Assembly: GCA_018064345.1 (NCBI GenBank)
Contig: JAGHVK010000085.1
Span: 1-62,515, forward strand
From: Candidatus Cacconaster merdequi
GTDB taxonomy: Bacteria > Bacteroidota > Bacteroidia > Bacteroidales > UBA932
Direction: 5' to 3'
DNA: 62,515 nucleotides
The position numbers and the translations under genes were made by a program. Under the pieces are notes generated by a model, which was not told where the DNA came from, made no database searches, and saw only the letters and a program-made list of their open reading frames with translations. Positions within the stretch are counted from its first letter, which is position 1, and each line of letters opens with the position of its first letter. Of this stretch, positions 28,935 through 48,398 are shown one piece after another.

Positions 28935-29714
28935 ATGAAACGCATCATTGAACTGACGATGCTGTCAGCATTTGCCTTCCTGCTTGTCACAGGTTGCGCT
29001 ACACAGAAGGAAATACTCTATTTCCAGGATATTGATGACATTGTCCTTGCTGGTCAGAGCACGGCATACGAGGCTGTGATAAAGAAGGACGACTGCCTTT
29101 CCATTGTCGTGAGCGGACCCGACAAGAGCGTGACTCTTCCGTACAACCTTACTTTGTCCGACAACTCGTCCAGCGCAAACCCGGAGTCCGCCACTCTTTC
29201 TTATCTTGTGGATCCGGAGGGCAACATCAACTTCCCGACTTTGGGTACAATCCACGTGGAGGGTATGACCAGGAACCAGTTGGTCGAGTATCTTACCAAT
29301 GAGATTGGAAAGGATGTCAAGGACCCGATAGTATATGTCTCATTCAAAAACTACAAGATTACGATTCTCGGTGAAGTCAAGGCACCGGGCACTTATACCA
29401 TGGATTCCGAGAAGGTCACTCTCCTCCAGGCTCTCGGAAGAGCCGGTGACCTCACCCTCAATGCCAAGAGGGAAGGCATCGTCCTGGCAAGGGAGGTCGG
29501 TGGCAAGATTGAGCATTATACGATAGACCTCAAGAGCGCAAAGTTGTTCGACTCCCCTTACTATTATCTGCAGCAGAATGACGTGGTATATGTTCCTGCA
29601 AGTGCAACGAGAGTCGCCTCGGCTACCGCAGCGACCGGTCTGTGGAGTACGATGCTTTCTTCAATCACAACTATCCTCACTATTGTCACATTCATCCTTA
29701 CACTTACCAGATAA
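28935..29714 (+). CDS. Polysaccharide export lipoprotein (Wza/BexD-like)
   Basis: A 259-residue outer-membrane export lipoprotein with lipobox LLVTGC|A. It continues TQKEILYFQDID, typical of Bacteroidota Wza-like proteins. The polysaccharide-export domain (YEAVIKKDDCLSIVVSG to LVDPEGNINFPTLGTIHVEGMT) is followed by one SLBB domain (ITILGEVKAPGTYTMDSEKVTLLQALGRAG). A hydrophobic C-terminal segment (residues 235-257) may anchor it. It is coupled to the Wzc-like kinase six bases downstream. Confidence 0.94.
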   Translation: MKRIIELTMLSAFAFLLVTGCATQKEILYFQDIDDIVLAGQSTAYEAVIKKDDCLSIVVSGPDKSVTLPYNLTLSDNSSSANPESATLSYLVDPEGNINFPTLGTIHVEGMTRNQLVEYLTNEIGKDVKDPIVYVSFKNYKITILGEVKAPGTYTMDSEKVTLLQALGRAGDLTLNAKREGIVLAREVGGKIEHYTIDLKSAKLFDSPYYYLQQNDVVYVPASATRVASATAATGLWSTMLSSITTILTIVTFILTLTR

Positions 29715-29720
29715 CGAATA

Positions 29721-32342
29721 ATGGAAAACGATACTAAAAAGGCTCTCGAAAAGAGAGGAAGCAAATATCAGTTCACTCTCCACGACATAGCGGATTTCCT
29801 GTGGCGTCTGAGATTGTGGATAGTCATTTCCGCGGCAGTGGCTATGGTGCTGGCCTTTGTCGTTGTCAGGATGCGGACTCCGCTTTACCAGAGGTCTTCG
29901 TGGATAGTACTCAATACAAACGACGGCTCCAATTCACAGATGGAGGTTCTTAGGGAATTTTCCGGAAGGACAGTCTCGAAGAAAATTGGTAACGAGCTGT
30001 ATATCATCAAGTCTCCTTCGATGATGCGCAAGGTCGTAGAGGAGTTGAACTTGAATACGAGATACTTTGAATATTCGTCTCCTGTCCTCAACTCTTCAAG
30101 GCTGTTCCGGTCCCTGTTCGATACGAAAAGAATAGAGTATTACAACAACAATCCTTTCTCGATGTCGTTCAAATCGGATGATTTGTTGCCGAATGAAATG
30201 AAAATCAGGTCGATTGCGGTTGAATTCACCTCAAAGTCAGATTCGACATACCACATCCGTAAATTCCTTGTGAACGGACGTTCACTTGATGTCGACAAGA
30301 AAGATGTAAGGTACGGTGACAGAATCCGTTTTCGTGGCGGTAGTGTAGCCGTTAATCTGGAAATCGCGTCGGCTATGGTCAAGGGAACTAGATATCTGTG
30401 CGTTTACCAGCAGCCTATGGCTGTCGCCAAGATGTTCCAGAGCAATCTGTCCGCAACTGTCCCTGACGACAACACTTATCAGGGTAATGATGTGATAGTC
30501 TTGACATTCAATGATATCAGCATCTCAAGGGCTGAAGATATCCTCAATACCCTGGTTCGTAAGGTAAACGATGAGGCACGTGATTATCAGAACATAGCCA
30601 GTCTGAAAACCGTCGAATTCATAGACCAGAGACTGGAGTCTCTTTCCGGGGATCTGGGTGAGGTGGAACATTCCTATCGGTCATACCAGTCAAGCAATGA
30701 GGTACTGGATCTTGGCTCGCAGTCGCAGATGACTCTTGCCTCTGACAGGCAGAATCAGGACCAGTTGAATGAGGTTACGTTGCAGCTTCAAGTATTGGGC
30801 ATGATCAGTGATTATCTGAGCAATAACACTGATGGCAAGTACAGTGTGATACCAGCCAACATAGGTATCAGTGATGTGGGCTTGAACTCTACTATCAGCG
30901 CATACAATACTATGGTGGCGGAACGTAACAGGATGGTTGCGAACTCCAGTGAAAACAACCCGAGGGTTTTGGGTATGAACGCACAGCTTGATGACCAGAA
31001 AACCAGTATAGAGGTGACTATCGCCAATCTTGTCCAGGTTTACAACATAAAGGAGCGGGAATTGCAGAAGAATTTGAAAGCCGGAAAGAGAGAGATGGCA
31101 ATCATTCCTCAGAGGCAGTTCGTCCTGCAGCAGCTCGACAGGAAACTGGAAGTCATAGAGCCTCTCTACCAGATGCTTCAGCAGAAGAGAGAGGAGGCAC
31201 AGATCAAGATGTGCGCCCAGGTGGATAATTTCCGCATTGTGGAACAGGCATTCGGTACGAACGCGCCTGTCAGCCCGAATAAAACCAGAATATATCTGTT
31301 TGCACTGCTGATAGGTCTGTGCCTGCCTCCTGCCCTTGTATGGCTCAGGATGCAGTTAAGGACAAAGGTGGAAACCAAACAGGATATCATAGACAAGGTT
31401 GATGCTCCGATTATGGCCGTGTTGCCGAAGGCATCCGAGGAAAAAGGCTTGAGAGTACGTGAAACAGGCAGGGATTCCCTTTCTGAATCATTCAGGATGC
31501 TGCGCTCTAACCTCCAGTTCCTCCCGGAAACAAAGGTTCTGCAGATTACATCTTCAATACCTGGTGAGGGAAAGACTTTCGTATCCGCGAACCTTGCATT
31601 GTCGCTGTCTCATCTTGGGCAGAAGGTGTTGCTGATAGGCCTTGACTTGAGAAAGCCGGCTCTGGAAAAGATATTCGGAAGCCGTAGCGGCAAATCAGCA
31701 AGTGTAGTCGGCTATCTTATCGGAAAATGCAGGAACCTTGACTCTCTTGTGATAAAAAGTACACTCAGCGGCAATCTTGATCTGATATATCCCGGCCCGA
31801 TTCCTCCTAATCCGTCAGAACTCATTGCGAACGGAAAAATCGGTGAAATCATAGAGTATTTCAGAGACAAGTATGACTACATAGTAGTCGATACCGCTCC
31901 GTTCATGCCTGTATCTGATTCGATGCTGGTGAACAAATACGTCGACTCAACGCTGTACGTTGTCCGTGCGAACTTTACCAATCTTCAGATGATGGATTCC
32001 ATAAATGAGATAGTACGGAGTGAATCCGGTAATCTGAAGAACGTACACATCGTTCTCAACGGAATGGACGTTACTTCAGGAGGCTATAGATACGGTTATG
32101 GTTACGGTTACGGCTACGGCTACGGTTATGGCTACGGTCGCAGCTACGGATACGGCTATGGCAACGGTGCCAATGGGTATGGCTATGGTTATGGCTACGG
32201 TTATGGTTATGGCTATGGTGAAGAGTCTGACAAGAAAGATGAGAACAAGTCATTCTGGAAAAGATATTCCGATGAGTTTGTCTATGGAATGAAGAAATTG
32301 AAGGAATCTTTCGCAAAAGTATTTGACAAGTTCAAAAAATAA
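29721..32342 (+). CDS. Polysaccharide chain-length regulator with tyrosine autokinase domain (Wzc-like)
   Basis: An 873-residue inner-membrane protein. A Wzz domain has membrane helices near residues 30-52 and 525-545, with a long periplasmic coiled-coil region between. A cytoplasmic BY-kinase domain follows, with Walker A SIPGEGKTFVSA near residue 612, the A' region LLIGLDLRKPAL and Walker B YIVVDTAPF near 720. The usual first Asp of A' (DxDxR) is Gly here. The C-terminus carries a striking Gly-Tyr tail with 19 tyrosines at about residues 789-832, then a basic amphipathic end. Tyrosine-rich tails are the autophosphorylation sites of this family. It works with the adjacent Wza-like lipoprotein in capsule or exopolysaccharide export. 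Confidence 0.94.
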   Translation: MENDTKKALEKRGSKYQFTLHDIADFLWRLRLWIVISAAVAMVLAFVVVRMRTPLYQRSSWIVLNTNDGSNSQMEVLREFSGRTVSKKIGNELYIIKSPSMMRKVVEELNLNTRYFEYSSPVLNSSRLFRSLFDTKRIEYYNNNPFSMSFKSDDLLPNEMKIRSIAVEFTSKSDSTYHIRKFLVNGRSLDVDKKDVRYGDRIRFRGGSVAVNLEIASAMVKGTRYLCVYQQPMAVAKMFQSNLSATVPDDNTYQGNDVIVLTFNDISISRAEDILNTLVRKVNDEARDYQNIASLKTVEFIDQRLESLSGDLGEVEHSYRSYQSSNEVLDLGSQSQMTLASDRQNQDQLNEVTLQLQVLGMISDYLSNNTDGKYSVIPANIGISDVGLNSTISAYNTMVAERNRMVANSSENNPRVLGMNAQLDDQKTSIEVTIANLVQVYNIKERELQKNLKAGKREMAIIPQRQFVLQQLDRKLEVIEPLYQMLQQKREEAQIKMCAQVDNFRIVEQAFGTNAPVSPNKTRIYLFALLIGLCLPPALVWLRMQLRTKVETKQDIIDKVDAPIMAVLPKASEEKGLRVRETGRDSLSESFRMLRSNLQFLPETKVLQITSSIPGEGKTFVSANLALSLSHLGQKVLLIGLDLRKPALEKIFGSRSGKSASVVGYLIGKCRNLDSLVIKSTLSGNLDLIYPGPIPPNPSELIANGKIGEIIEYFRDKYDYIVVDTAPFMPVSDSMLVNKYVDSTLYVVRANFTNLQMMDSINEIVRSESGNLKNVHIVLNGMDVTSGGYRYGYGYGYGYGYGYGYGRSYGYGYGNGANGYGYGYGYGYGYGYGEESDKKDENKSFWKRYSDEFVYGMKKLKESFAKVFDKFKK
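32085..32219 (+). repeat. Hexamer-based low-complexity tract encoding the Gly-Tyr tail
   Basis: Alternating GGN and TAY codons encode YG repeats with 19 tyrosines, interrupted by RS and NGAN. The mixed synonymous codons argue for protein-level selection rather than a recent slippage product. Confidence 0.9.
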
Positions 32343-32349
32343 GACTTGA

Positions 32350-33123
32350 ATGAATCGATTTGTCCTGGTCATTGTTTCTTTGTTTGTGGTTGCAACGGCA
32401 TCGGCCCAATTCACCGATGGTATGTCCGGATATCTCCAGTCCCCCTCCGCCGAGATGTATGCTGACGGGACTTTCATGATAACTAACAACTACCTGAACA
32501 AGGATTCCCTGTCTCCTTGGGGATGGGGCTATGATACTTTTGGATACAGTTTCGGCGTCTCGTTCTGGAAGAGGCTTGAGATAGTGTATGCCTGCACGAT
32601 CTTCGATGGAAAACGAAGGCCCAACCCGTCAGCCCGTGATCTGATTATGTTCAATCAGGACAGGCATTTCGCCGTCAAGGCATTGCTGCTCGATGAGGGT
32701 GAGATATGGAAGTGGACGCCGGCGATAGCTGTCGGTATTTCCGACCCTGTTACAAGTTTTTCAGGTGATTATAAGCCGCAGGTCAAGCATGGAAACGGTT
32801 ATTTCAACAGGATGTTTGCCGTTGCTACAAAGCATTTCAAGACTGGTATAGGAGTTTTCGGGGTGTCTGCGGGTTATCAGTACAGTCTCAGGACAGAGTA
32901 TGTAATCAACAATCCGTGTGGTGGATTGACCTGGAATCCTGTATGGCTGAACAATCCGGAGTTCATAATAAGCGGTTTCAGGTTGATAGGGGAGTACGAC
33001 TCCAGAACGTTCAACGTCGGTGCAGTGGCTTCCGTCTGGCGCGACCATTTCGACCTGATGTTCGAGTGGCAGAATTTCAACAGATGCAACTTCGGAGCCC
33101 GTTTCAGGTGTATACTGAAATAA
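32350..33123 (+). CDS. YjbH-like outer-membrane protein, N-terminal-half type
   Basis: A 257-residue protein with a signal peptide (VLVIVSLFVVATASAQ). It reads like the N-terminal half of YjbH-family exopolysaccharide-associated beta-barrels: MSGYLQSPSAEMYADGTFMI, then FWKRLEIVYACTIFDGK and DRHFAVKALLLDEGEIWKWTPAIAVGISDP. Family members in Proteobacteria are about 700 residues, so this is a single-module form. A protein resembling the other half is at 43012. It sits between the Wzc-like kinase and the UDP-GlcNAc dehydrogenase gene, so a role in polysaccharide secretion across the outer membrane is likely (inference). Confidence 0.65.
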   Translation: MNRFVLVIVSLFVVATASAQFTDGMSGYLQSPSAEMYADGTFMITNNYLNKDSLSPWGWGYDTFGYSFGVSFWKRLEIVYACTIFDGKRRPNPSARDLIMFNQDRHFAVKALLLDEGEIWKWTPAIAVGISDPVTSFSGDYKPQVKHGNGYFNRMFAVATKHFKTGIGVFGVSAGYQYSLRTEYVINNPCGGLTWNPVWLNNPEFIISGFRLIGEYDSRTFNVGAVASVWRDHFDLMFEWQNFNRCNFGARFRCILK

Positions 33124-33159: not shown

Positions 33160-34434
33160 ATGAAAGATATAAAAATTTGTGTAGTGGGTCTCGGATATGT
33201 CGGACTCCCGTTGGCAAGACTTTTTTCAACAAAATTCGAGACGATAGGTTTCGATATGAATTCTAACCGTGTGGCCGCCCTTATGGCAGGGCACGACTCT
33301 ACTCTTGAAGTTTCTGACGAACTGCTTCAGGATGCAATCAACAACCACGGTTTTGTATGCACTGACGATATCGAGAAGATAAGGCAGTGCAATTTCTATG
33401 TAGTGGCTGTGCCGACTCCTGTGGACAGGAACAACACTCCTGACCTCTCTCCACTTATCGGAGCATCCACCACTGTAGGCAAGGTTATCGGCAAAGGTGA
33501 CATAGTTGTATATGAATCGACCGTATATCCCGGTGTGACAGAGGATGAGTGCATACCTGTAGTGGAGAAGGTGTCCGGGTTGAAATTCAATGTGGACTTC
33601 TTCGCAGGCTATTCCCCTGAAAGAATTAATCCTGGTGACAAGGTACATACCGTGGAGAAGATTCAGAAAATCACCTCAGGATCGACTCCGGAAGTTGCAG
33701 ACTTGATTGACAGCGTTTACAATGCTGTGCTTCTGAACGGCACCATCAAGGCTGCTTCAATCAAAGTGGCCGAAGCAGCGAAGGTTATCGAAAATTCTCA
33801 ACGCGACATCAATATCGCGTTCGTTAACGAACTCTCGAAGATATTCACCCTGATGGGCATCGATACCTACGACGTGCTTGAAGCCGCCGGTACGAAATGG
33901 AATTTCATAAAGATGAATCCGGGACTCGTCGGAGGGCACTGCATATCAGTGGACCCTTATTATCTTGCCCAGTGCGCACAAAGGCTCGGTTACAACCCTG
34001 AGATAATCCTCGCAGGACGCCGTATGAATGATGGTATGGGAGCATACGTGGCTGACCAGACTATCAAGCTGATGCTTAAGAAAGGCATACAGGTGCTTGG
34101 ATCCAAGATTATCATAATGGGATTCACTTTCAAGGAGAACTGCCCGGACGTACGCAATACGAGAGTCATCGACATATATCGCGCTCTTCAGGAGTACAGT
34201 GCCAACATCACTGTCTTCGACCCTTGGGCCAATCCTGCTGTAGTTAAGAAAGAATACGGTATAGATATCGTCAATGAACTGCCTGCTGACAAGTTCGATG
34301 CCGCTATCGTTGCTGTGGCTCACCGTCAGTTCCGTGAGATGGAGATTGACTTTGACGCCCTTTTGCAGAAGAATCACGTTTTATTCGACGTCAAGGCGAT
34401 AATGCCACGTGAACTTGTTGACGGAAGACTGTAG
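33160..34434 (+). CDS. UDP-N-acetylhexosamine 6-dehydrogenase (WbpA/WbpO/TviB type)
   Basis: A 424-residue nucleotide-sugar dehydrogenase that oxidises C6 of UDP-GlcNAc or an epimer to the uronic acid. It has VVGLGYVGLPLARLFSTKFE (residues 8-27), AVPTPVDRNNTPDLS, ESTVYPGVTEDE and GYSPERINPGD. The catalytic Cys is in PGLVGGHCISVDPYYLA near residue 262. These signatures separate it from the Ugd at 26294. With the WlbA, WbpE and WbpD types that follow, it supplies UDP-GlcNAcA as the first step to UDP-GlcNAc(3NAc)A. Confidence 0.92.
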   Translation: MKDIKICVVGLGYVGLPLARLFSTKFETIGFDMNSNRVAALMAGHDSTLEVSDELLQDAINNHGFVCTDDIEKIRQCNFYVVAVPTPVDRNNTPDLSPLIGASTTVGKVIGKGDIVVYESTVYPGVTEDECIPVVEKVSGLKFNVDFFAGYSPERINPGDKVHTVEKIQKITSGSTPEVADLIDSVYNAVLLNGTIKAASIKVAEAAKVIENSQRDINIAFVNELSKIFTLMGIDTYDVLEAAGTKWNFIKMNPGLVGGHCISVDPYYLAQCAQRLGYNPEIILAGRRMNDGMGAYVADQTIKLMLKKGIQVLGSKIIIMGFTFKENCPDVRNTRVIDIYRALQEYSANITVFDPWANPAVVKKEYGIDIVNELPADKFDAAIVAVAHRQFREMEIDFDALLQKNHVLFDVKAIMPRELVDGRL

Positions 34435-34467: not shown

Positions 34468-35448
34468 ATGGCTAATTTTGCATTGATAGGTGCTGCAGGG
34501 TATATTGCACCGAGACATCTGAAGGCGATTGCCGATACCGGGAACAATCTTGTGGCAGCTTACGACCGCTTTGACAGTGTAGGCCGTCTTGACAGCTTTT
34601 TCCCTGACTGCTCTTTCTTTACGGAACAGGAACAGTTCGAGCGTTTTGTCGACAGGGTCAAAGGAACAAAGGATCAGATAGACTGGCTTTCGATATGTAC
34701 TCCGAACTATACTCACGATCCTTTTATCCGTTACGGACTGAAGAACGGTATGAACGTGATATGCGAGAAACCTGTTGTACTTCACCCGGAACATATCGAT
34801 GAGATAGTGGAACTGGAGAAGCAGACAGGACATCAGGTATACAACATTCTTCAACTTCGTTTGCACGACAGCATAGCGGCTCTGAAGAAGAAAGTTGACA
34901 ATGGCCCGAAAGACAAAGTCTATGACGTGGATTTGACATACATCACATCCCGCGGAAGATGGTATTATTCTTCCTGGAAGGGAAACAATCACAAGAGCGG
35001 TGGCGTGGCCACGAACATCGGTGTACATTTCTACGATATGCTTCAATGGATATTCGGCCCTGTCAAGGAGAATATAGTAAACATAATGAGTTTCGACCGT
35101 GTGGCCGGATGTCTTGAACTTGAAAGGGCGCACGTACGTTATTTTCTGAGCATCAATGCTGACTGCCTGCCTGAAAATGCTGTTCAGGGCGAGAAGAAGA
35201 CCTACCGTACTTTGAATATCGACGGCGATGAGTTCGAGTTCAGTGCAGGCTTCACGGAGCTTCATACCAAGAGCTATCAGAATATCCTTTCCGGAAGCGG
35301 TTTCCGCATCAGCGAGGCTCGCAACTGCATACAGATTGTGGAGGATATACGCAAGGCCTCACCGACAGGTCTGGTCGGCAAATATCATCCGCTGGCAGAA
35401 ATGCCTCTGGCCAAGCATCCTTTCGGATGGTCTGATGTCGATTATTAG
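34468..35448 (+). CDS. UDP-GlcNAcA 3-dehydrogenase (WlbA/WbpB type, Gfo/Idh/MocA family)
   Basis: A 326-residue NAD-dependent oxidoreductase, closely recalling Bordetella WlbA from end to end: FALIGAAGYIAPRHLKAI, WLSICTPNYTHDPFI, VICEKPVVL (catalytic Lys), DLTYITSRGRWYYSSWKG and GVATNIGVHFYDMLQ (catalytic His). It makes the 3-keto form of UDP-GlcNAcA for the next aminotransferase. WlbA/WbpB enzymes hold their NAD(H) tightly and use 2-oxoglutarate to reoxidise it, giving 2-hydroxyglutarate (established for the family). That by-product may explain the FAD/Fe-S dehydrogenase two genes on. Confidence 0.93.
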   Translation: MANFALIGAAGYIAPRHLKAIADTGNNLVAAYDRFDSVGRLDSFFPDCSFFTEQEQFERFVDRVKGTKDQIDWLSICTPNYTHDPFIRYGLKNGMNVICEKPVVLHPEHIDEIVELEKQTGHQVYNILQLRLHDSIAALKKKVDNGPKDKVYDVDLTYITSRGRWYYSSWKGNNHKSGGVATNIGVHFYDMLQWIFGPVKENIVNIMSFDRVAGCLELERAHVRYFLSINADCLPENAVQGEKKTYRTLNIDGDEFEFSAGFTELHTKSYQNILSGSGFRISEARNCIQIVEDIRKASPTGLVGKYHPLAEMPLAKHPFGWSDVDY

Positions 35449-35462
35449 AAAATCCATAGGTG

Positions 35463-36611
35463 ATGTCTGAAAAGATACAAATGGTTGACCTCAAAGGTCA
35501 GTACCTGAAGATAAAGGATGAGGTTGATGACGCCATCCGTTCAGTCATCGATTCCACTTCATTCATCAACGGACCTTCGGTAAAGCAATTCGCTGACAAT
35601 CTTTCCGAATATATGGGAGGATGCCACGTCATTACCTGCGCGAACGGAACGGATGCCTTGCAGATTGCCTTGATGTCCCTTGACCTCAAACCCGGAGATG
35701 AAGTTATTGTCCCGGCATTCACATATGTGGCTTCTGCAGAAGTAATCGGATTGCTGGGCCTTACACCCGTAATGGTCGATGTCGATTTCGGTACTTTCAA
35801 CGTGACTGTGGATAATCTCCGTAAGGCACTCTCACCTAAAAGCAGGGCCGTCATCCCGGTCCATCTGTTCGGCCAGAGTTGCGATATGGAGCCGATTCTC
35901 TCTTTTGCAGAGGAGAATCATCTCTTCGTGATAGAGGACAATGCACAGGCTATAGGTGCTGAATACACTTTCAGTGACGGGCACAAGGCGAAGACCGGAA
36001 CTATGGGAACGATAGGCTGTACCTCCTTCTTCCCGTCCAAGAACCTCGGGTGTTACGGGGACGGCGGTGCCATCTTTACCAATGATGACATTCTTGCCGG
36101 GAAACTGCGTATGATAGCCAATCACGGCCAGCGAATCAAGTACCATCACTCTGTAATCGGCTGCAACAGCCGGCTTGACTCCATCCAGGCCGCAGTGCTG
36201 GACATTAAGTTGAAACATCTTGATGAATACTGCCGTGCAAGGTATGAGGCTGCTTCGTACTATTCAGCGAAACTCAGAGAGTTCGACCCTTGCTGCAAGT
36301 TCTTCGAAACTCCTGTGGAGCTTGAGGCCAGCACTCACGTGTACCATCAATATACTTTGAAGATCAAGGATGGCCGTCGCGATGCACTGAAAGCATTCCT
36401 TGCGGATGAAGGCGTCCCGAGTATGATATATTATCCTCTCCCTCTTCAGGAGCAGGAGGCTTTCAAGTCGATAACCCGCAGTGCAGAGTCTCTTGAAATC
36501 TCTCATAAGGTGGCTTATTCAGTACTGTCGCTTCCGATTCATACCGAGATGACACAGGAGATTCAGGACAAGGTTCTTGACGCAATCCGCAAATTCTTTG
36601 CAAATTGCTGA
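35463..36611 (+). CDS. UDP-3-keto-GlcNAcA aminotransferase (WbpE/WlbC type)
   Basis: A 382-residue DegT-family PLP aminotransferase. N-terminal IQMVDLKGQYLKIKDEVDDA and ACANGTDALQIAL-like stretch (TCANGTDALQIALMSL) match the WbpE/WlbC branch. The PLP lysine is in TSFFPSKNLGCYGDGGA and the conserved Asp in FVIEDNAQAIGA. It uses glutamate as amino donor to make the 3-amino sugar, and the 2-oxoglutarate formed can be consumed by the WlbA-type partner. ATG 35463 is preferred over the preceding GTG. Its 3' end overlaps the next gene by 7 bases. Confidence 0.93.
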   Translation: MSEKIQMVDLKGQYLKIKDEVDDAIRSVIDSTSFINGPSVKQFADNLSEYMGGCHVITCANGTDALQIALMSLDLKPGDEVIVPAFTYVASAEVIGLLGLTPVMVDVDFGTFNVTVDNLRKALSPKSRAVIPVHLFGQSCDMEPILSFAEENHLFVIEDNAQAIGAEYTFSDGHKAKTGTMGTIGCTSFFPSKNLGCYGDGGAIFTNDDILAGKLRMIANHGQRIKYHHSVIGCNSRLDSIQAAVLDIKLKHLDEYCRARYEAASYYSAKLREFDPCCKFFETPVELEASTHVYHQYTLKIKDGRRDALKAFLADEGVPSMIYYPLPLQEQEAFKSITRSAESLEISHKVAYSVLSLPIHTEMTQEIQDKVLDAIRKFFANC

Positions 36612-39487
36612 TACACACAGACAGTCTTCATAGGATAGCCTATTCCACGGATGCGAGTGCATACCGTGAACTGCCGTTTGGTGTTGCATATCCTGAAAGT
36701 GAGTCTGATTTGCGGGATCTGATACGGGAGGCCCGCAGCAGGGGCGTGTGTCTTATTCCGCGTGCAGGAGGTACTTCCATTGCCGGACAGGTCGTCGGTA
36801 ACGGGATTGTTGTTGACTTCAGCCGCCATTTCAACCATGTCCTTGAAATAAATAAAGAGCAGGCTTGGGTGCGCGTCCAGCCGGGAGTCATAAGGGATGA
36901 ACTCAACATGGCTCTCAAGCCCTACGGGCTTTTTTTCAGCCCTGAGACTTCCACAAGCAACAGATGCTGCATCGGTGGAATGGTAGGGAACAATTCCTGC
37001 GGAACCCACTCACTGGTGTATGGCAGCACACGACATCACGTGCTGCGCATAAAAGGCTTGCTCTCAGACGGCTCATCGTTTGATACGGCCAGTCGTGGAG
37101 AAGGTGACCTTGAAAGGGCGATATACTCTCAACTGGATATCTGGCGGTCGGACGAGAAGACGAGGAATCTGATTTCCGACAACTATCCTGACAAGGCATT
37201 GCGCCGCAGGAGTTGCGGATTTGCGATAGATGAGGCCATTGAGGGGCCGCAGCCGGATTTGTGCAAGCTGATATGTGGCAGCGAAGGTACTTTGTGTCTG
37301 GTAACGGAGATAACCCTCTCCCTCGACCCTCTCCCGCCGCACAGGAACATGGTGCTGTGCGCTCATTGCGATTCACTTGAGAAGAGTTTTGAGGCCAATC
37401 TTGTCGCTTTAAGGCATTCTCCTGTTGCCGTCGAACTTATGGATGGCAAGATTCTGGAACTCGGCAAGGATAATCTTCAGGCAAGGAAGAACCGTTTCTT
37501 CGTAAGTGGCAATCCCGCAGCCTTGATTATTGCGGAGTTCAACGGCGATGATATGGAGAGCTGTGCGGATGCCCTTGAGTCCGATTTGAAGAAGGAGGGG
37601 CTGGCATATTGTTGCACGCGTGTGTTTGACGCAGACGTGTCGCGTGTATGGGCTTTGAGGAAGGCCGGCCTTGGCGTATTGAGCGGAATGAAGGGTGATG
37701 CCAAACCGGTAGGTGTTATAGAAGATACTGCGGTTGAGCCTCGGAGACTGCCTGCTTACATGGCTGATTTCCGGGCGATGATGAAGCGTATCGGTCTTGA
37801 TTGTGTCTATTATGGCCATATCGGAACCGGTGAACTGCACCTTCGACCGATAATCAATCTGAAGACAGAAGAAGGCAGGCACAAATTCCGGCAGGTGGCA
37901 GAAGAGACTGCTCTGCTTGTACGGAAGCATAAGGGCAGCCTGAGCGGAGAACACGGTGACGGCCGTCTGAGGGGAGAATTCATCCCTCTCCTTTATGGTA
38001 ATGAATGTTACCGGATGATGCGGGACTTGAAGCATTGCTGGGATCCTGACGGTATCTTCAATGTTGGAAAGATCATTGATACACCTGCAATGGATGAACA
38101 GCTCCGTTTCAGTGCCGATGTCCAGTACGCGGTGGAAGACAAGATAGGTAAGGACAACACCTATTTCAACTGGAGAGCTGATTTCGATGAGTGCCGGGTT
38201 GAGGGCGCGAGCGGTGTCAGGTCGCAGACACACGCTCTGATGTGCTCGATTGAACAGTGCAACGGTGCGGGAGACTGCCGCAAGTCGAATCTTTCCGGAG
38301 GTACGCTATGCCCTGCATACAAAGTGTCTGCAAGGGATGAAATCCTTTCTACAAGAGCGAGAGCCAATGTACTGCGCGAGATACTTACTCACGGACTTGA
38401 TGGTAAAGTACTTGATTCTCCGGAGATTGAAGAGGTTCTTAAGTCTTGTCTCGCTTGCAAGGGCTGCAAAGGAGAATGCCCTTCCAACGTAGATATGACC
38501 CGTATCCGTGCTGAGATTCTGCAGCATATCTACGATGAAAAAGGAACTCCCCTGCGTTCGTGGATGGTCGCAAGGATGGCGGATGTCGAAAGTATCGGAT
38601 CCTTCTTTCCCCATATCTATAATTTCGCAGCTGGATGGAGGCCAACATCCTTACTCATAAAGAGAATGGTCGGTTTCGCACCTGAAAGGTCCATTCCGAA
38701 ACTGGTGACGGAAAAGGTGGTTCAATCTTCCCGTAAAGGCAGGAAAGTGTGGCTTTTCCTTGATGAGTTCACGAAACATCAGGAACCTCAGCTGGCTCAG
38801 ACTCTGATTGAACTGCTTGAAGGTCTTGGATATGCTGTTGCTGTTCCGCGTCACGTGGAGAGCGGGCGCGCGGCAATATCAAAAGGTTGTCTTAAGAGGG
38901 CGAAGAAGATTGCTTCCAGAAACGTGTCGATGCTGAAAGATATAGTGACGGATGATGCTCCCCTTATTGGAATCGAACCTTCCTGCATCCTTTCTTTCAG
39001 AGATGAATACCCGGACCTCGTGCCGCCTGAAATGAGAGATGACGCTCGTGCATTGGGCTCAAGGGCAATGCTATATGATGAGTTCTTCGTCCGTGAACTG
39101 GAGGCGGGAAGGATTTCCGCAGCTTCGTTCAGGGAAGATGGGTGTGAGATATGGCTTCACGGGCATTGTCACCAGAAAGCTCTCGTCGGCATAGAGAAGA
39201 CTGCAACAATGCTCCGGACGCTCAGGGGGGCAAAGGTGAATGTTATTCCGAGCGGATGCTGCGGTATGGCCGGTTCGTTCGGATATGAGAAAGAACATTA
39301 CAAGACATCTCTTGCAATAGGCGAGATGGTGCTTTTCCCGGCTGTGCGCAAGGCTGTGGCCGAGGCTTCGGATTCAGTACCCGTGTTTGTGGCTGCCCCG
39401 GGCACTTCGTGCCGCCAGCAGATACTTGATGGAACCGGGGTGAAAGCGGTCCATCCTCTTGTAATTATGAATAAATGGTTGAAATAG
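36605..39487 (+). CDS. FAD- and Fe-S-containing dehydrogenase (YdiJ-like; candidate 2-hydroxyglutarate dehydrogenase)
   Basis: A 960-residue fusion. The FAD_binding_4 domain is at about residues 20-230 (PRAGGTSIAGQVVGNGIVVDF, STSNRCCIGGMVGNNSCGT). The FAD-oxidase C-terminal domain reaches about 495 (YGHIGTGELHLRP, SGEHGDGRLRGEF). A cysteine-rich ferredoxin region is at 545-635 (CNGAGDCRK, CLACKGCKGECPSN). The C-terminal CCG-type domain has LHGHCHQKAL and PSGCCGMAGSFGYE. The layout matches E. coli YdiJ, reported as a D-2-hydroxyglutarate dehydrogenase; D-lactate or glycolate are alternatives. The frame has no ATG near its start. TTG at 36605, inside wbpE's last codons, is the only plausible start upstream of the FAD domain. 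It sits between WbpE- and WbpD-type genes. Confidence 0.85.
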   Translation: MLIHTDSLHRIAYSTDASAYRELPFGVAYPESESDLRDLIREARSRGVCLIPRAGGTSIAGQVVGNGIVVDFSRHFNHVLEINKEQAWVRVQPGVIRDELNMALKPYGLFFSPETSTSNRCCIGGMVGNNSCGTHSLVYGSTRHHVLRIKGLLSDGSSFDTASRGEGDLERAIYSQLDIWRSDEKTRNLISDNYPDKALRRRSCGFAIDEAIEGPQPDLCKLICGSEGTLCLVTEITLSLDPLPPHRNMVLCAHCDSLEKSFEANLVALRHSPVAVELMDGKILELGKDNLQARKNRFFVSGNPAALIIAEFNGDDMESCADALESDLKKEGLAYCCTRVFDADVSRVWALRKAGLGVLSGMKGDAKPVGVIEDTAVEPRRLPAYMADFRAMMKRIGLDCVYYGHIGTGELHLRPIINLKTEEGRHKFRQVAEETALLVRKHKGSLSGEHGDGRLRGEFIPLLYGNECYRMMRDLKHCWDPDGIFNVGKIIDTPAMDEQLRFSADVQYAVEDKIGKDNTYFNWRADFDECRVEGASGVRSQTHALMCSIEQCNGAGDCRKSNLSGGTLCPAYKVSARDEILSTRARANVLREILTHGLDGKVLDSPEIEEVLKSCLACKGCKGECPSNVDMTRIRAEILQHIYDEKGTPLRSWMVARMADVESIGSFFPHIYNFAAGWRPTSLLIKRMVGFAPERSIPKLVTEKVVQSSRKGRKVWLFLDEFTKHQEPQLAQTLIELLEGLGYAVAVPRHVESGRAAISKGCLKRAKKIASRNVSMLKDIVTDDAPLIGIEPSCILSFRDEYPDLVPPEMRDDARALGSRAMLYDEFFVRELEAGRISAASFREDGCEIWLHGHCHQKALVGIEKTATMLRTLRGAKVNVIPSGCCGMAGSFGYEKEHYKTSLAIGEMVLFPAVRKAVAEASDSVPVFVAAPGTSCRQQILDGTGVKAVHPLVIMNKWLK

Positions 39488-39493
39488 AGCAAG

Positions 39494-40060
39494 ATGAATA
39501 TGGAAAAGAATTATTTCGTACACGAGTCCAGCTATGTGGACGATGACGTAAAGATAGGTGAGGGGACAAAGATATGGCACTTCTGCCATATACAGAAAGG
39601 TGCTGTAATAGGCCGTAACTGTTCGCTTGGACAGAATGTGAACATTGGGAACAATGTGAAAGTCGGCAACGGAGTCCGTATCCAGAACAACGTTTCTCTT
39701 TATGAGGGTGTCGAGGTTGAGGACAACGTATTCTGCGGTCCTTCCTGCGTGTTCACGAACGTTACGACTCCGAGGGCGCATTTCCCGGTCCACGGGGTCT
39801 ATGCAAGAACCTTCATACGCGAAGGGGCTTCACTTGGAGCAAACTGTACTGTAGTCTGCGGTCATACGGTGGGAAGGAGTGCTTTGATTGCTGCAGGTGC
39901 GGTGGTTACCAAAAATGTGAGGGATTATGCCCTTATGGCTGGTGTTCCGGCCCGGCAGATAGGATGGGTCTGCGAGTGCGGTAACCGTCTTGATTCTACT
40001 CTCAAATGCGGATGTGGCAGGGAGTATAAGGAGAATGATGGGGAATTGATAAAGCTATGA
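39494..40060 (+). CDS. UDP-GlcNAc3NA 3-N-acetyltransferase (WbpD/WlbB type)
   Basis: A 188-residue left-handed beta-helix acetyltransferase. Hexapeptide repeats run from about residue 15 to 150 ([40 protein letters not shown]). The WbpD hallmark is [19 protein letters not shown], and the acetyl-CoA site is near [15 protein letters not shown] short Cys-rich tail (CECGNRL...CGCGREY) looks zinc-ribbon-like. It would acetylate the 3-amino group, completing UDP-GlcNAc(3NAc)A. No 2-epimerase (WbpI type) is seen, so the gluco form is the likely product of the visible genes. Last gene before the terminator. Confidence 0.92.
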
Positions 40061-40253: not shown

Positions 40254-40667
40254 ATGGAAGCTAAATTTTATTTCTGCCGTCATTGCGGCAATGTGATAAT
40301 CAAATTCGTGGACGGCGGTCCGGTTCCTTCCTGCTGCGGAGAGGAGATGGTGGAACTCAAGGCAAACACCACAGATGCTACAAAGGAAAAGCATGTTCCT
40401 TGTGTAACGAAGGTGAATGACTGCACAATCAAAGTGGCAATCGGCAGCGAGCCTCATCCGATGACTCCCGAGCACCACATACAGTTCATCTACCTGGAGA
40501 CTGAAAATGGCGGGCAGTTGCAGAGGATGCATCCCGGTACCCCGGCGGAGGTCACTTTCTGCTGCACCGACAAGATCAGGCGAGTCTTCGAATACTGCAA
40601 TATCCACGGACTTTGGAAGACTGAACTGTGCAGCAACTGCACTGCAGGTGAAAAACTCGCCTTTTGA
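40254..40667 (+). CDS. Desulfoferrodoxin (superoxide reductase, two-iron type)
   Basis: Reduces superoxide to peroxide in the cytoplasm without making O2, typical of anaerobes; 137 residues. The desulforedoxin-like centre I has all four Cys (8, 11, 27, 28 in FCRHCG and SCCGEE). Centre II has EKHVP with the conserved Glu-Lys-His, EPHPMTPEHHIQFIYL with further His ligands, and a Cys-His pair in YCNIHGLWK. It heads a run of stress and iron genes (lipocalin, ferritin, LysR regulator). Confidence 0.94.
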   Translation: MEAKFYFCRHCGNVIIKFVDGGPVPSCCGEEMVELKANTTDATKEKHVPCVTKVNDCTIKVAIGSEPHPMTPEHHIQFIYLETENGGQLQRMHPGTPAEVTFCCTDKIRRVFEYCNIHGLWKTELCSNCTAGEKLAF

Positions 40668-40708
40668 GTGATGTCCTGAAATGTTCCAACAATCATTCAT
40701 CAACTTCG

Positions 40709-40732
40709 GAAGCCTGCCACCAGGCAGGCTTC
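40709..40732 (+). terminator. Hairpin between superoxide reductase and lipocalin genes
   Basis: 10-bp perfect stem GAAGCCTGCC/GGCAGGCTTC with loop ACCA. No T run on the plus strand, so it may be an attenuator or processing hairpin. Confidence 0.55.
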
Positions 40733-40749
40733 TCAAAACAAAAACAATT

Positions 40750-41313
40750 ATGAAACCAATAATATTCTCTTCAGTTCTGGTAGGCGCACTCATACTTTTC
40801 TGCACCAGTTGCATGGCAGCGTCGAAATCGAAATCAATCAACAATGAGCCTGTGGCAAAACTCGATCTGAACAGATATCTTGGCAGCTGGTATGAAATTG
40901 CCAGATATGACCACAGTTTCGAACGTGGTATGACAAACACAACGGCAATGTATTCAATCAGGCCGGACGGAAAAATCAAAGTTCTCAACAGTGGTTGGCA
41001 GAACGGTGAATACAAGGAATCTGTAGGAAAGGCATTCCGTCCTGATGAGAATGTTCCCGCGCTGCTGCGAGTATCGTTCTTCGGACCGTTCTATTCTGAT
41101 TACAGGGTACTTATGCTTTCTTCCGATTATCAAGTAGCTCTGGTGGGCTCAAAGAACGCAAAGTATCTTTGGATACTTTCACGTACTCCGCAGCTGTCGG
41201 ATTCCGTATGCATGCAGGTGATTGACGAAGCCCGCAGACGCGGATACGACACCGAAAAACTTATCTGGGTGGACCAGAAAGTGAACATCGCAGGTTTTGA
41301 GGCCGATGAATAA
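40750..41313 (+). CDS. Outer-membrane lipocalin (Blc-like)
   Basis: A 187-residue lipoprotein with lipobox LFCTSC|M. It has the lipocalin signature LDLNRYLGSWYEIARYDHSF (residues 40-59), a central YRVLMLSSDYQVALVGS strand set and the C-terminal LWILSRTP. Blc-type lipocalins bind fatty acids or lysophospholipids at the outer membrane and are often stress-induced. The ATG at 40750 starts the signal peptide. The TAA stop is inside a reverse-orientation dispersed palindrome. Confidence 0.92.
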   Translation: MKPIIFSSVLVGALILFCTSCMAASKSKSINNEPVAKLDLNRYLGSWYEIARYDHSFERGMTNTTAMYSIRPDGKIKVLNSGWQNGEYKESVGKAFRPDENVPALLRVSFFGPFYSDYRVLMLSSDYQVALVGSKNAKYLWILSRTPQLSDSVCMQVIDEARRRGYDTEKLIWVDQKVNIAGFEADE

Positions 41314-41331
41314 GAACCTGTTTTGAAATCA
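41312..41331 (+). repeat. Dispersed palindrome copy 13, over the lipocalin stop
   Basis: AAGAACCTGTTTTGAAATCA, reverse orientation; the first two bases belong to the TAA stop. Confidence 0.75.
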
Positions 41332-41360
41332 CTGATTATTGACTTTAAAATCAAAGAATT

Positions 41361-41876
41361 ATGATAACGAAGAAAATACAGGACGCAATCAACTCCCAGA
41401 TCAATGCCGAGTTGTGGTCAGCATATCTCTATCTTTCCATGAGCAGCTACGCTGAATCGATAGGGTTGAAGGGTGTAGCCAACTGGTTCTATGTCCAGTG
41501 GCTGGAAGAACAGGACCATGCAAGAATACTTGAGGAATATCTTTACAGCCAGGACGCCAGAATGCTGCTGAAGCCAATCGAGGCGGTTCCGGTAGAGTGG
41601 AAAGGCGCTGTCGAAATGTTCAAGGACGCACTTGACCACGAGAAGAAAGTGACGGCAATGATTCATAATCTGGCTCTCCTTTCAAGGCAGGAAGGCGACT
41701 TCGCAACTTTCAATAGGATTCAATGGTTTGTGGATGAACAGGTTGAGGAGGAAGAGAATGTGCGTGACATCCTCGCCGACCTTGAATTGACAGGTGATTC
41801 CGACTATGGAATGTATGCTTTTGACAAGGAGCTTTGCAAAAGGGAATACAGCGTTGCATCACCTTTGAAAGGATAG
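41361..41876 (+). CDS. ftnA: Bacterial non-haem ferritin
   Basis: A 24-subunit iron-storage cage protein, 171 residues. Ferroxidase ligands are Glu17 (NAELW), Glu50 and His53 (LEEQDHA), with later Glu in ALDHEKKVT and Gln in VDEQVEEE. Length and helix pattern match FtnA rather than Dps or bacterioferritin. It stores Fe(II) released or scavenged under oxidative stress, fitting its neighbours. Confidence 0.95.
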   Translation: MITKKIQDAINSQINAELWSAYLYLSMSSYAESIGLKGVANWFYVQWLEEQDHARILEEYLYSQDARMLLKPIEAVPVEWKGAVEMFKDALDHEKKVTAMIHNLALLSRQEGDFATFNRIQWFVDEQVEEEENVRDILADLELTGDSDYGMYAFDKELCKREYSVASPLKG

Positions 41877-41895
41877 AAGATGCTTTCCATAGGAG

Positions 41896-41920
41896 GTAAC
41901 CATTTCAAGACAGGTTCTTG
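41896..41920 (+). repeat. Dispersed palindrome copy 14
   Basis: GTAACCATTTCAAGACAGG continuing TTCTTG, forward orientation, between ftnA and the LysR gene. Confidence 0.7.
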
Positions 41921-41937
41921 AAAACCGGTTTAATGAG

Positions 41938-41945
41938 TATCTTTG
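41938..41945 (+). promoter_or_regulatory. Bacteroidota -7 box for the LysR gene
   Basis: TATCTTTG, only five bases before the ATG at 41950; predicts a leaderless mRNA. Confidence 0.65.
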
Positions 41946-41949
41946 CACA

Positions 41950-42846
41950 ATGGAATTCAGACAATTGAAATATTTTGAGGCCGTCGCCCAGACCCGCAGT
42001 TTCACTGAGGCTGCGCGGCGGCTCTTTGTCTCACAGGGAGCCTTGTCCCAGCAGATGAAGTTGTTGGAAGATGAACTCGGGTCCCCTCTTTTTGAACGTG
42101 GGGCAAGGGGTGTCCGGCTGACTGAGGCGGGAGAACAGTTTCTGCCGCTCGCCCGCAGGACATTGACGGATATGGAAGCTTCCCGTCAGCGGGTGCGTGA
42201 CTTGAGCAAGTCGCTTGGCGGTGAGTTGAACATAGGAGTGACCTTTTCTTTCCGGGATCCTTCCACTGAGGCTATTGCCGATTTCTTGAAGAGGTATCCT
42301 GACGTGCATCTCAATATCTTTTACAAGACTTCTTCCGAACTGGCTGACATGCTGCGTTGTGGAAATCTTGATTTCTTTCTGGCATTCAAGTCTCAAAGAG
42401 TCCATTCCGACCTCGATTTCGAACCTCTTTTCGAATATGATTTGAGTGCCGTGATGAGGAAAGACCATCCGCTCGCAAACCACAACAGCCTTAGTATGAA
42501 GGATCTTGACGGTTTTCCCGTGGCACTGCCGGGAAGCGGGATGCAAGCGAGGAAGGCTTTCGACAGATATGTAAGCCTTGACACGGAGGAACTTGACGTG
42601 AAGGTCGAAATCAATGACCCGAACGTGATATTGGACATCGTCGCAAACACAGGCATGCTGACCATTCTTTCCGGCCAGGTGGTGAACTACCGGGACGGAA
42701 TTGTGGCCGTTCCTCTCGAAAATATGCCGAAAATGAAGGGTGGAGTATATTTTCTTGGAGATTCATACCGGAAGAAAAGTGCTGGAATGTTCTTGCAGAT
42801 GCTCAAGGATTCTGACAGCATCCGTAACCTTATGACGCTTGATTGA
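41950..42846 (+). CDS. LysR-family transcriptional regulator
   Basis: A 298-residue regulator. The winged helix-turn-helix is at residues 1-60 (MEFRQLKYFEAVAQTRSFTEAARRL then FVSQGALSQQMKLLEDELG). The effector domain is of the CynR/OxyR-like group (LNIGVTFSFRDPSTEAIADF). There is no obvious OxyR Cys pair: the only Cys near the effector site is in MLRCGNL. Downstream of superoxide reductase, lipocalin and ferritin, it may control them or the following surface genes (inference). Its promoter box is so close that the transcript may lack a leader. Confidence 0.9.
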   Translation: MEFRQLKYFEAVAQTRSFTEAARRLFVSQGALSQQMKLLEDELGSPLFERGARGVRLTEAGEQFLPLARRTLTDMEASRQRVRDLSKSLGGELNIGVTFSFRDPSTEAIADFLKRYPDVHLNIFYKTSSELADMLRCGNLDFFLAFKSQRVHSDLDFEPLFEYDLSAVMRKDHPLANHNSLSMKDLDGFPVALPGSGMQARKAFDRYVSLDTEELDVKVEINDPNVILDIVANTGMLTILSGQVVNYRDGIVAVPLENMPKMKGGVYFLGDSYRKKSAGMFLQMLKDSDSIRNLMTLD

Positions 42847-46529: not shown

Positions 46530-48398
46530 ATGGAAAACACACAATTAGAGAACACGCAGGTTGAAAACTATGTAGAAGAGCCGATTGTTGCTCCGGCAAA
46601 GCCTGCAAAGAGCAACGCATCTGTCGATAATGACAAGTTCGACTGGGATGCATTCGAAAATGACGGTTTCAGCGCAGAGGATCTCGCTAAGACCGAAGAA
46701 AGTTATTCACAGACTCTCAGCCGTGTAAGCGAAAATGAAGTTGTTGAGGGTACTGTAGTTGCGCTCAACAAGCGCGAGGTGATTGTGAACATCGGATACA
46801 AGAGTGAAGGTGTCATCTCAATCAATGAGTTCCGTTACAATCCTGAACTTGCTGTCGGTGACAAAGTTGAGGTTTACGTAGAAAACGCTGAAGACAAGAA
46901 AGGCCAGCTGATTCTCTCCCACAAGCGCGCACGCGCTCTCAAGTCTTGGGACAGAGTAAACGAAGCTTGCGACAATGGTGAAATCGTTAAGGGTTACATC
47001 AAGTGCAGGACCAAGGGCGGTATGATTGTCGATGTATTCGGAATCGAAGCTTTCCTCCCTGGCTCACAGATAGATGTCAAGCCAATCAGAGATTACGACG
47101 TATTCGTTAACAAGACTATGGAGTTCAAGATTGTCAAGATCAATCAGGAATTCCGCAATGTTGTCGTATCGCACAAGGCTCTTATCGAGGCTGAAATCGA
47201 AGCCCAGAAAGCCGGTATCATGGAGAAACTTGAGAAGGGACAGATTCTTGAAGGTACTGTCAAGAACATCACTTCTTATGGAGTATTCGTTGACCTCGGC
47301 GGCGTAGACGGCCTTATCCATATAACAGATTTGAGCTGGGGCCGTATCAACCATCCGGAAGAGGTTGTATCGCTCGACCAGAAGATTAACGTAGTCATCC
47401 TTGACTTCGATGATACCAAGAAGCGTATCGCTCTCGGTCTCAAGCAGCTTACTCAGCACCCTTGGGATGCTCTTGACGAGAATCTCAAAGTCGGTGACAA
47501 GGTTAAGGGTAAAGTTGTCGTCATAGCTGACTACGGTGCATTCATCGAAGTGCAGCCGGGTGTAGAGGGCCTTATCCACGTATCTGAAATGAGCTGGAGC
47601 CTCCATCTCCGCAGCGCCCAGGACTTCTTGAAAGTCGGCGAGGAGGTAGAAGCCGTTATTCTCACCTTGGACCGCGAAGAACGCAAGATGAGCCTCGGTA
47701 TCAAGCAGCTTAAACCGGATCCATGGGCTACCATCGCTGAAAAATATCCTATCAATTCCAAGCATACTGCAACAGTCCGCAATTTCACCAACTTCGGCGT
47801 ATTCGTTGAACTTGAGGAAGGCGTAGACGGTCTCGTACATATCAGTGACCTCAGCTGGACAAAGAAGATCAAACATCCTTCAGAATTCACTGCAATCGGT
47901 GACAAACTTGAGGTTGTGGTTCTTGAGGTGGACCAGGAAAACCGTCGTCTGAGCCTCGGCCACAAACAGCTTGAGGACAATCCTTGGGACAACTACGAAG
48001 CAGTGTACACAGTGGGCTCAATCCACGATGGTACTGTTGCTGCTATCGGTGAGAAGGGTGCAACAATCACTCTTGCTGAAGGAGTAGAGGGCTTCTGCTC
48101 TATAAAGAATCTTGCAAAAGAGGATGGTACAACTGCTAAGGAAGGCGAGACCATTGAGTTCAAGATCATTGATTTCAACAAGAACAGCAAGAAGATAGTT
48201 CTCTCTCATTCAAGACTCTTCGAAGACGTAAAGCGTGAAGAGGCTAAGAAAGAGGCAAAAGAGAAGGATGCTGAGGCAAATTCAACTCACAAGGCTGTGA
48301 AGAAACTGAAGGACAATCTTGAAAAGACCACTCTCGGTGACATTTCAGAACTCGCAGCTCTCAAGGACGAACTTGAAAAGGCTCAGAAAGAGAACTAG
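46530..48398 (+). CDS. rpsA: 30S ribosomal protein S1
   Basis: A 622-residue RNA-binding protein with six S1 domains. They begin near VVEGTVVALNKREVIVNI, IVKGYIKCRTKGGMIVDV, ILEGTVKNITSYGVFVDL, KVKGKVVVIADYGAFIEV, KHTATVRNFTNFGVFVEL and IHDGTVAAIGEKGATITL. An acidic N-terminal extension of about 60 residues and a Lys/Glu-rich C-terminal tail are typical of the phylum. It delivers mRNA to the 30S subunit, and in Bacteroidota is thought to matter for start selection because Shine-Dalgarno sequences are weak. The stop overlaps the GTG start of rnz (TAGTG). Confidence 0.97.
   Translation: MENTQLENTQVENYVEEPIVAPAKPAKSNASVDNDKFDWDAFENDGFSAEDLAKTEESYSQTLSRVSENEVVEGTVVALNKREVIVNIGYKSEGVISINEFRYNPELAVGDKVEVYVENAEDKKGQLILSHKRARALKSWDRVNEACDNGEIVKGYIKCRTKGGMIVDVFGIEAFLPGSQIDVKPIRDYDVFVNKTMEFKIVKINQEFRNVVVSHKALIEAEIEAQKAGIMEKLEKGQILEGTVKNITSYGVFVDLGGVDGLIHITDLSWGRINHPEEVVSLDQKINVVILDFDDTKKRIALGLKQLTQHPWDALDENLKVGDKVKGKVVVIADYGAFIEVQPGVEGLIHVSEMSWSLHLRSAQDFLKVGEEVEAVILTLDREERKMSLGIKQLKPDPWATIAEKYPINSKHTATVRNFTNFGVFVELEEGVDGLVHISDLSWTKKIKHPSEFTAIGDKLEVVVLEVDQENRRLSLGHKQLEDNPWDNYEAVYTVGSIHDGTVAAIGEKGATITLAEGVEGFCSIKNLAKEDGTTAKEGETIEFKIIDFNKNSKKIVLSHSRLFEDVKREEAKKEAKEKDAEANSTHKAVKKLKDNLEKTTLGDISELAALKDELEKAQKEN

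Follow-up and report, generated by a model that had tools for sequence, protein, structure and literature searches.

A gene for an FAD/Fe-S dehydrogenase lies inside a wbp operon on a 62,515-nucleotide contig of Candidatus Cacconaster merdequi (Bacteroidales; JAGHVK010000085.1, hereafter the window), and its product is probably a D-2-hydroxyglutarate (D-2-HG) dehydrogenase that serves its own sugar pathway by returning the by-product of the neighboring WbpB-type enzyme to 2-oxoglutarate. The evidence consists of the genes and their classes, the active-site residues of the dehydrogenase, its co-occurrence with WbpB and its repeated linkage to wbpB. The original prediction for this stretch had proposed such 2-hydroxyglutarate recycling; it holds as the best explanation and the co-occurrence favors it, but several results speak against a strict need for the enzyme, the WlbA label given to its partner did not hold, and the coupling has already been published in trans. 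The window corresponds to contig C30 in a draft genome (G000) of 1.9 Mb, 84% complete and 6% contaminated.

According to the open reading frames (ORFs), wbpA, wbpB, wbpE, the dehydrogenase gene and wbpD follow one another head to tail on the + strand between 33160 and 40060 (Table 1), which bears out the predicted five-gene order with the dehydrogenase between the WbpE and WbpD types. From gene to gene the spacing is a gap of 33 bases, a gap of 11 bases, a 7-base overlap and a gap of 6 bases. The overlap, likewise as predicted, occupies 36605-36611 (TTGCTGA, read directly) and contains the TGA stop of wbpE. The dehydrogenase frame opens on the TTG inside the end of wbpE, a start that agrees with the homologues, most of which align from residue 1-6, and it ends 6 bases 5′ of wbpD. 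Homologues of all four genes of the Wbp pathway to UDP-GlcNAc3NAcA (wbpA, wbpB, wbpE and wbpD) are found together here, with wbpE and wbpD assigned by general family (DegT, hexapeptide) plus position and the pathway place of WbpE taken from the description in PMC4031482. The WbpA-type protein scores 554.9 bits with the TviB model, under the cut-off of 592, and 386.7 bits with the nucleotide-sugar dehydrogenase model, over the cut-off of 189.8. Within the operon we found no evidence of an internal terminator (5 terminator-like sites versus 7.0 expected by shuffling) or of an internal promoter (15 promoter-like sites versus 9.9 expected, standard deviation 2.8).

Class of the 3-dehydrogenase and active site of the YdiJ-like enzyme

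The 3-dehydrogenase of the window, which is the sole match of its kind in its own genome at E 0.001, scores 353.7 bits against PDB entry 3oa2 (WbpB) and 303.1 bits against 3o9z (wbpB), versus 46.2 and 37.1 bits against the WlbA-class entries 3q2k and 3q2i. We take these four structures to be the enzymes of Pseudomonas aeruginosa, Thermus thermophilus, Bordetella pertussis and Chromobacterium violaceum, respectively. By sequence the window protein is of the WbpB class, with greater similarity to the P. aeruginosa enzyme than to the B. pertussis-type WlbA, and the 'WlbA type' partner of the original prediction is corrected to this class (353.7 versus 46.2 bits). P. aeruginosa WbpB is reported to follow a ping-pong route in which 2-oxoglutarate oxidizes NADH, whereas a sequential mechanism is described for WlbA from B. 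pertussis and from C. violaceum (PMC10622841, 2023), so the premise that WlbA and WbpB enzymes alike reoxidize NADH with 2-oxoglutarate agrees with this account for P. aeruginosa WbpB and conflicts with it for these WlbA enzymes. A WlbA label would in fact undercut the recycling idea, because the WlbA enzymes are reported as sequential and not as 2-oxoglutarate ping-pong enzymes; with the window protein in the WbpB class, 2-hydroxyglutarate is the expected by-product.

The dehydrogenase aligns over nearly its full length with Escherichia coli YdiJ (431 bits, 30% identity) and joins in one chain an FAD oxidase half and a GlpC-like Fe-S half (PF01565, PF02913, PF13183; GlpC models at amino acids 605-959). 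Its score with the NCBIfam YdiJ equivalog model NF049975 is 567.8 bits and does not reach the cut-off of 1350. Because this cut-off is missed we refer to the protein as 'YdiJ-like' rather than YdiJ, keeping from the predicted YdiJ type the layout and the active-site pattern. The best 80 loci of the enzyme all belong to Bacteroidota groups, except L051 ('uncultured bacterium').

For the active site we aligned 59 rows, namely 57 Bacteroidota-type proteins (window included), E. coli YdiJ and a paralogue from the window's own genome, took the residue roles of human D2HGDH from PMC7801405 and placed those residues with the help of an alignment to PDB entries as well. Human R386, H434, H441, E475 and H476 correspond to R352, H405, H412, E449 and H450 of the window enzyme and are identical in 57/57 rows. 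Human Asn443 is reported to contact the C5 carboxylate and to be replaced by hydrophobic residues in glycolate and D-lactate enzymes (GlcD/D-LDH; PMC7801405). The human identity is not kept at this position, which is Arg414 in the window, Arg in 57/57 rows and in E. coli YdiJ, and Met in the own-genome paralogue; the arginine favors a dicarboxylate substrate. The position of human Y432 is Tyr403 (Y in 40/57 rows, H in 17/57, F in E. coli YdiJ). Human Lys401 has no certain counterpart in the alignment and T390 is likewise not securely alignable; a possible equivalent of Lys401 is Lys367, which is Lys in 54/57 rows and in E. coli YdiJ as well. The paralogue itself (L100, G000:C39:5141-7972) is an FAD/Fe-S dehydrogenase with a 951-amino-acid open frame and 28-29% identity over the FAD half, occurs in 30/295 genomes of the order and probably acts on another 2-hydroxyacid.

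In the pathway that we propose, WbpA would make UDP-GlcNAcA, and WbpB would oxidize C3, with the hydride of the NADH bound tightly to the enzyme going to 2-oxoglutarate, which would leave as D-2-HG. WbpE would then aminate C3 and WbpD acetylate the amine, yielding UDP-GlcNAc3NAcA for the neighboring capsule or exopolysaccharide export genes. The amino donor of the WbpE-type aminotransferase is presumably glutamate, so that 2-oxoglutarate would be released at this step. The YdiJ-like enzyme would convert D-2-HG back to 2-oxoglutarate on its FAD, with the electrons passing via the Fe-S/GlpC-like half probably to menaquinone; the recycling would refill the co-substrate of WbpB and remove its inhibitor, and sugar oxidation would thereby in effect feed the quinone pool. 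The activities of the two enzymes, and the enantiomer concerned, are assigned by analogy with relatives, whereas the choice of electron acceptor and the dedicated role in the sugar pathway are our inference. In P. aeruginosa, WbpB is reported to reduce 2-oxoglutarate to D-2-HG and to be inhibited by it, and deletion of the D-2-HG dehydrogenase PA0317 is reported to lower O-antigen (PMC8651671). The YdiJ proteins of E. coli and Pantoea ananatis are reported to be active on D-2-HG and on no other acid tested, L-2-hydroxyglutarate, lactate and malate included, and E. coli K-12 deprived of ydiJ is reported to accumulate D-2-HG (PMC9504171). Judging by these published relatives, the enantiomers would match, as WbpB would make and the YdiJ-like enzyme oxidize D-2-HG.

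Co-occurrence, linkage and competing explanations

To determine whether the two enzymes travel together, the check proposed with the original prediction, we scored 295 genomes of the same order for WbpB (E ≤1e-50) and for the dehydrogenase (E ≤1e-150). WbpB is present in 174/295 genomes and the dehydrogenase in 185/295; 150 genomes carry both, 24 WbpB only, 35 the dehydrogenase only and 86 neither, giving an odds ratio (OR) of 15 (Fisher, uncorrected for ancestry), so the check came out in favor of the idea. Counted by family (n = 120), the figures are 78 both, 5 WbpB only, 10 dehydrogenase only and 27 neither. As a control, the C39 paralogue is if anything rarer with WbpB (11/30, OR 0.36, p 0.01).

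The genes are also found side by side more often than expected. A scan of the species genomes matched at least 591 stretches, of which the best 80 loci were kept, with flanks that vary and some contigs that end early. A WbpB homologue lies ≤4 kb from the dehydrogenase in 7 of these best 80 loci, versus ∼0.5 expected (20 kb seen flank), and those 7 are all among the 22 nearest loci. Linkage could be compared in 111 of the 150 both-gene genomes, those with both genes among the matches listed (the other 39 were not compared), and in 7/111, from four genera, the starts are ≤2.2 kb apart; the chance expectation within 5 kb is ∼0.42 per 150 genomes (plain Poisson, one assumed genome size). Linkage occurs in at least six gene orders (Table 1). 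On an enzyme tree built by a quick method from 58 rows, with the distant loci thinned and 14 rows linked, the linked state requires 6 changes, at least 5 of them forced by supported branches, versus 12.8 for shuffled labels.

Two genomes, G195 and G281, have two dehydrogenase copies each, one linked and one unlinked. Since both linked copies and the unlinked G195 copy form one supported clade (the unlinked G281 copy is outside the tree), the pairs point to a lineage-specific duplication. The unlinked G195 copy adjoins a PTA_PTB gene. The G195 wbpB beside the dehydrogenase is an open frame of 321 amino acids, and a second G195 wbpB (L097, G195:C1), inside a wbpE-wbpD-wbpB-wbpA cluster, is broken by stop codons. 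Proximity to wbpD-like genes occurs as well: at L022 a wbpD-like match (51%) lies <300 bases upstream of the dehydrogenase, and in G224 the dehydrogenase is 12 bases 3′ of a wbpD-like gene. Two wbpB homologues lie elsewhere in G224; they are adjacent to each other (L094, G224:C1; ∼63% and 59% identity to that of the window), stand beside Rml-like genes recognized by eye, and lie almost 1 Mb from the dehydrogenase and its wbpD-like neighbor.

Several results weigh against a D-2-HG dehydrogenase serving its own pathway. The association is not significant once stratified by family (Mantel-Haenszel OR 3.7, chi-square 2.35, 9/120 families informative), so part of the co-occurrence may be due to lifestyle or ancestry. 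No close dehydrogenase orthologue is present in 24/174 WbpB-positive genomes, and because no FAD-oxidase_C protein was detected in 19 of these 24, WbpB seems able to run without the dehydrogenase; in such genomes another D-2-HG outlet, or none, suffices. Within the window's own family, G008, whose completeness is listed as 100%, shares the order wbpA-wbpB-wbpE-wbpD with the window but lacks the dehydrogenase gene, and G126 has wbpB and no such dehydrogenase. None of the 58 more distant loci is linked (0/58), nor are the genes in 104 of the 111 genomes compared, of which 5 have them ≥49 kb apart on one contig and 99 on different contigs, mostly in fragmented genomes. To these points are added the missed YdiJ cut-off, the uncertain counterpart of Lys401 and the presence in the window's own genome of four SerA-like matches (31-33% identity), possible other sources of D-2-HG. 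Because of the WbpB-only genomes, the absence of the enzyme from G008 and G126 and the 104 unlinked genomes, the dehydrogenase is best regarded as an aid that is useful to WbpB yet dispensable, more often encoded elsewhere and recruited into the operon several times. The self-contained repair step built into the operon, as first envisaged, is neither required nor usual (24/174, G008, linkage in 7/111).

The four SerA-like proteins also bear on the alternative that survives best, although we consider it unlikely: that the enzyme is a general scavenger of D-2-HG, for example of that made by SerA, and sits in the operon by chance, with WbpB one source among several. Consistent with this, 35/295 genomes carry the enzyme without WbpB, the two genes are unlinked in 104/111, and the YdiJ proteins of E. 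coli and P. ananatis are reported to handle SerA-made D-2-HG (PMC9504171). However, the recurrence of linkage to wbpB across at least six gene orders, the second, linked copy in G195 and G281 and the overlap with wbpE in the window argue against placement by chance. A scavenger is compatible with a D-2-HG dehydrogenase that serves its own sugar pathway, the sole difference being dedication.

It is improbable that the enzyme oxidizes another 2-hydroxyacid (D-lactate, glycolate or D-malate) and that its operon position is incidental. The closest PDB entries by sequence are indeed glycolate oxidase and D-lactate dehydrogenases, human D2HGDH ranking below them, and the YdiJ equivalog cut-off is missed, but Arg414 is shared with the D-2-HG-specific E. 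coli YdiJ at a position that is hydrophobic in GlcD/D-LDH (PMC7801405), a comparison made without the FAD/Fe-S D-lactate enzymes of the same layout, and the co-occurrence with WbpB also speaks against such a substrate. Direct oxidation of a sugar-nucleotide intermediate, in the manner of DprE1-type FAD enzymes, is scarcely credible despite the shared FAD-domain family, weak matches to DprE1 (36.4 bits) and lactone oxidase (25.5 bits) and the polysaccharide clusters at several linked loci, as the five core 2-hydroxyacid residues are conserved in 57/57 rows and WbpB already performs the oxidation.

If the dehydrogenase does recycle D-2-HG for its own pathway, a repair known from serine synthesis and from the Pseudomonas O-antigen would extend to surface-glycan operons of Bacteroidota, the gene would serve in genomes as a marker of WbpB enzymes that use 2-oxoglutarate, and a function would be suggested for an FAD/Fe-S family that is widespread in this phylum and loosely annotated. 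How D-2-HG is disposed of is a question raised by the genomes that carry WbpB without such an enzyme. A more ambitious model, which we offer tentatively and hold to be doubtful, is that WbpB and the YdiJ-like enzyme might form a dedicated, perhaps physically associated relay in which the 2-oxoglutarate/D-2-HG pair shuttles sugar-oxidation electrons to the quinone pool. Such a relay would have been assembled several times independently in capsule and glycan loci of Bacteroidota, and sugar synthesis would feed anaerobic respiration instead of costing one 2-oxoglutarate per residue.

Genomic surroundings and use of the sugar

Table 1. Features of the window (positions in the whole contig) and gene orders of linked loci (X = dehydrogenase)
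Feature	Position	Strand	Details
Polysaccharide export block directly upstream of wbpA	28935..33123	+	Poly_export, Wzz/tyrosine-kinase type, YjbH
Poly_export	28935-29714	+	family match
Wzz/tyrosine-kinase type	29721-32342	+	family match
YjbH	32350-33123	+	family match
wbpA/tviB-type UDP-GlcNAc 6-dehydrogenase	33160..34434	+	424 aa; TviB model 554.9 bits
wbpB-type UDP-GlcNAcA 3-dehydrogenase, 2-oxoglutarate-using class	34468..35448	+	326 aa; Gfo/Idh/MocA; PDB comparison
wbpE-type aminotransferase	35460..36611	+	383 aa; DegT/DnrJ/EryC1, 355 bits
YdiJ-like FAD/Fe-S D-2-hydroxyacid dehydrogenase, proposed D-2-HG dehydrogenase	36605..39487	+	960 aa, TTG start
FAD_binding_4 domain of dehydrogenase	36680..37078	+	aa 26-158
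FAD-oxidase_C substrate domain of dehydrogenase	37340..38074	+	aa 246-490; R352, H405, H412, R414, E449, H450
4Fe-4S dicluster-like domain of dehydrogenase (Fer4_8), opens GlpC-like C-terminal half	38249..38491	+	aa 549-629
wbpD-type hexapeptide N-acetyltransferase	39494..40060	+	188 aa; hexapeptide transferase family
Window order			wbpA-wbpB-wbpE-X-wbpD
L006/L008/L010/L018 order			wbpB-DegT-2-epimerase-X
L009 order			wbpB-wbpE-(404-aa ORF)-GT-X-wbpD
L013/L024/L086 order			X-wbpB
L087/L088 order			2-epimerase-wbpB-X-DegT
L089-L091 order			wbpD-wbpB-(305-307 aa)-X-(646-647 aa)

Because export genes adjoin the operon and CapD-, RmlA-, GalE-, RmlC-, RmlD- and UDP-glucose-dehydrogenase-like ORFs, recognized by eye, lie farther upstream, the locus probably serves a capsule or exopolysaccharide. 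The end product would fit UDP-GlcNAc3NAcA, as a single Epimerase_2 query (1e-10, run without a positive control) matched no WbpI-type 2-epimerase in the 84% complete genome. In Porphyromonas gingivalis the same Wbp pathway is reported to make the linking sugar of type IX secretion system (T9SS) cargo (PMC7468200, PMC4031482), a role that we set aside for the window pathway, since SprA was not found in the four family members searched. SprA (TIGR04189), present in 277/295 genomes, was found neither in the window's incomplete genome nor in its family members G008, G126 and G224, which are 99-100% complete. With SprA not found in these four genomes and export genes adjoining, a capsule or exopolysaccharide precursor is the more likely use of the sugar here, and the T9SS role may apply to linked loci of T9SS-bearing families, such as L089-L091. 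At L089, where Pfam was applied to this locus of the three, the 305-307-aa ORF is of FemAB/GNAT type and the 646-647-aa ORF is Polysacc_synt_2. VimE-/VimA-like deacetylases as neighbors of linked loci were considered and dropped, Pfam giving no match for five proteins (L013, L024, L086, L023, L088); of two further suspected acyltransferases near linked loci, that at L088 has a FemAB/GNAT match and that at L023 no Pfam match.

Three further features were seen in passing. The Wzz/kinase-type protein has near its C-terminus a long Tyr-Gly repeat (GYGYGYG..., by eye) that is possibly a tyrosine-phosphorylation tail. Directly after the operon, 40254-42846 encodes desulfoferrodoxin, a lipocalin, ferritin and a LysR-type regulator and looks like the oxidative-stress group of an anaerobe. 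Finally, the draft genome has a second ribosomal protein S1-like match (C117:1-1494, beginning at the contig end) with 90% identity to window 46530-48398, which may reflect the 6% contamination.

Comparison with known systems

The WbpA-B-E-D chemistry is shared within Bacteroidales with the Wbp/Vim pathway of P. gingivalis and Tannerella forsythia (PMC7468200, PMC4031482). In those species the pathway is reported to supply the T9SS linking sugar, whereas the search of four genomes from the window's family gave no SprA, and the wbp genes of P. gingivalis are described as scattered (PMC4031482), in contrast to the contiguous genes of the window beside polysaccharide export genes.

With the YdiJ proteins of E. 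coli and P. ananatis the window enzyme shares the domain order FAD_binding_4, FAD-oxidase_C, Fe-S and GlpC-like, as reported for them in PMC9504171, and with E. coli YdiJ also the active-site pattern, including RK, GHxxxGxLHxR and GEHG. It differs from the latter in length (960 versus 1018 amino acids, at 30% identity) and in gene context, as E. coli ydiJ adjoins menI and ydiK whereas the window gene sits among wbp genes. The D-2-HG dehydrogenase of Pseudomonas stutzeri, judged by the length given in PMC9504171, is of a shorter type without the GlpC-like half that the window enzyme has.

The closest functional parallel is the P. aeruginosa pair WbpB/PA0317, in which likewise D-2-HG made by WbpB is returned by a flavin D-2-HG dehydrogenase that supports O-antigen synthesis, PA0317 being presented as serving SerA and WbpB alike (PMC8651671). 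Among the papers listed from the literature searched, which lacked most subscription journals, we found no report of wbpB and a ydiJ-type gene in one operon. We take PA0317 to be a shorter enzyme that lacks the GlpC-like half as well, and its gene presumably lies far from wbpB in P. aeruginosa. In trans, the coupling of a D-2-HG dehydrogenase to WbpB is thus known from published work on P. aeruginosa, and its operon form, with a YdiJ-like enzyme encoded inside the wbp operon itself, is the new part.

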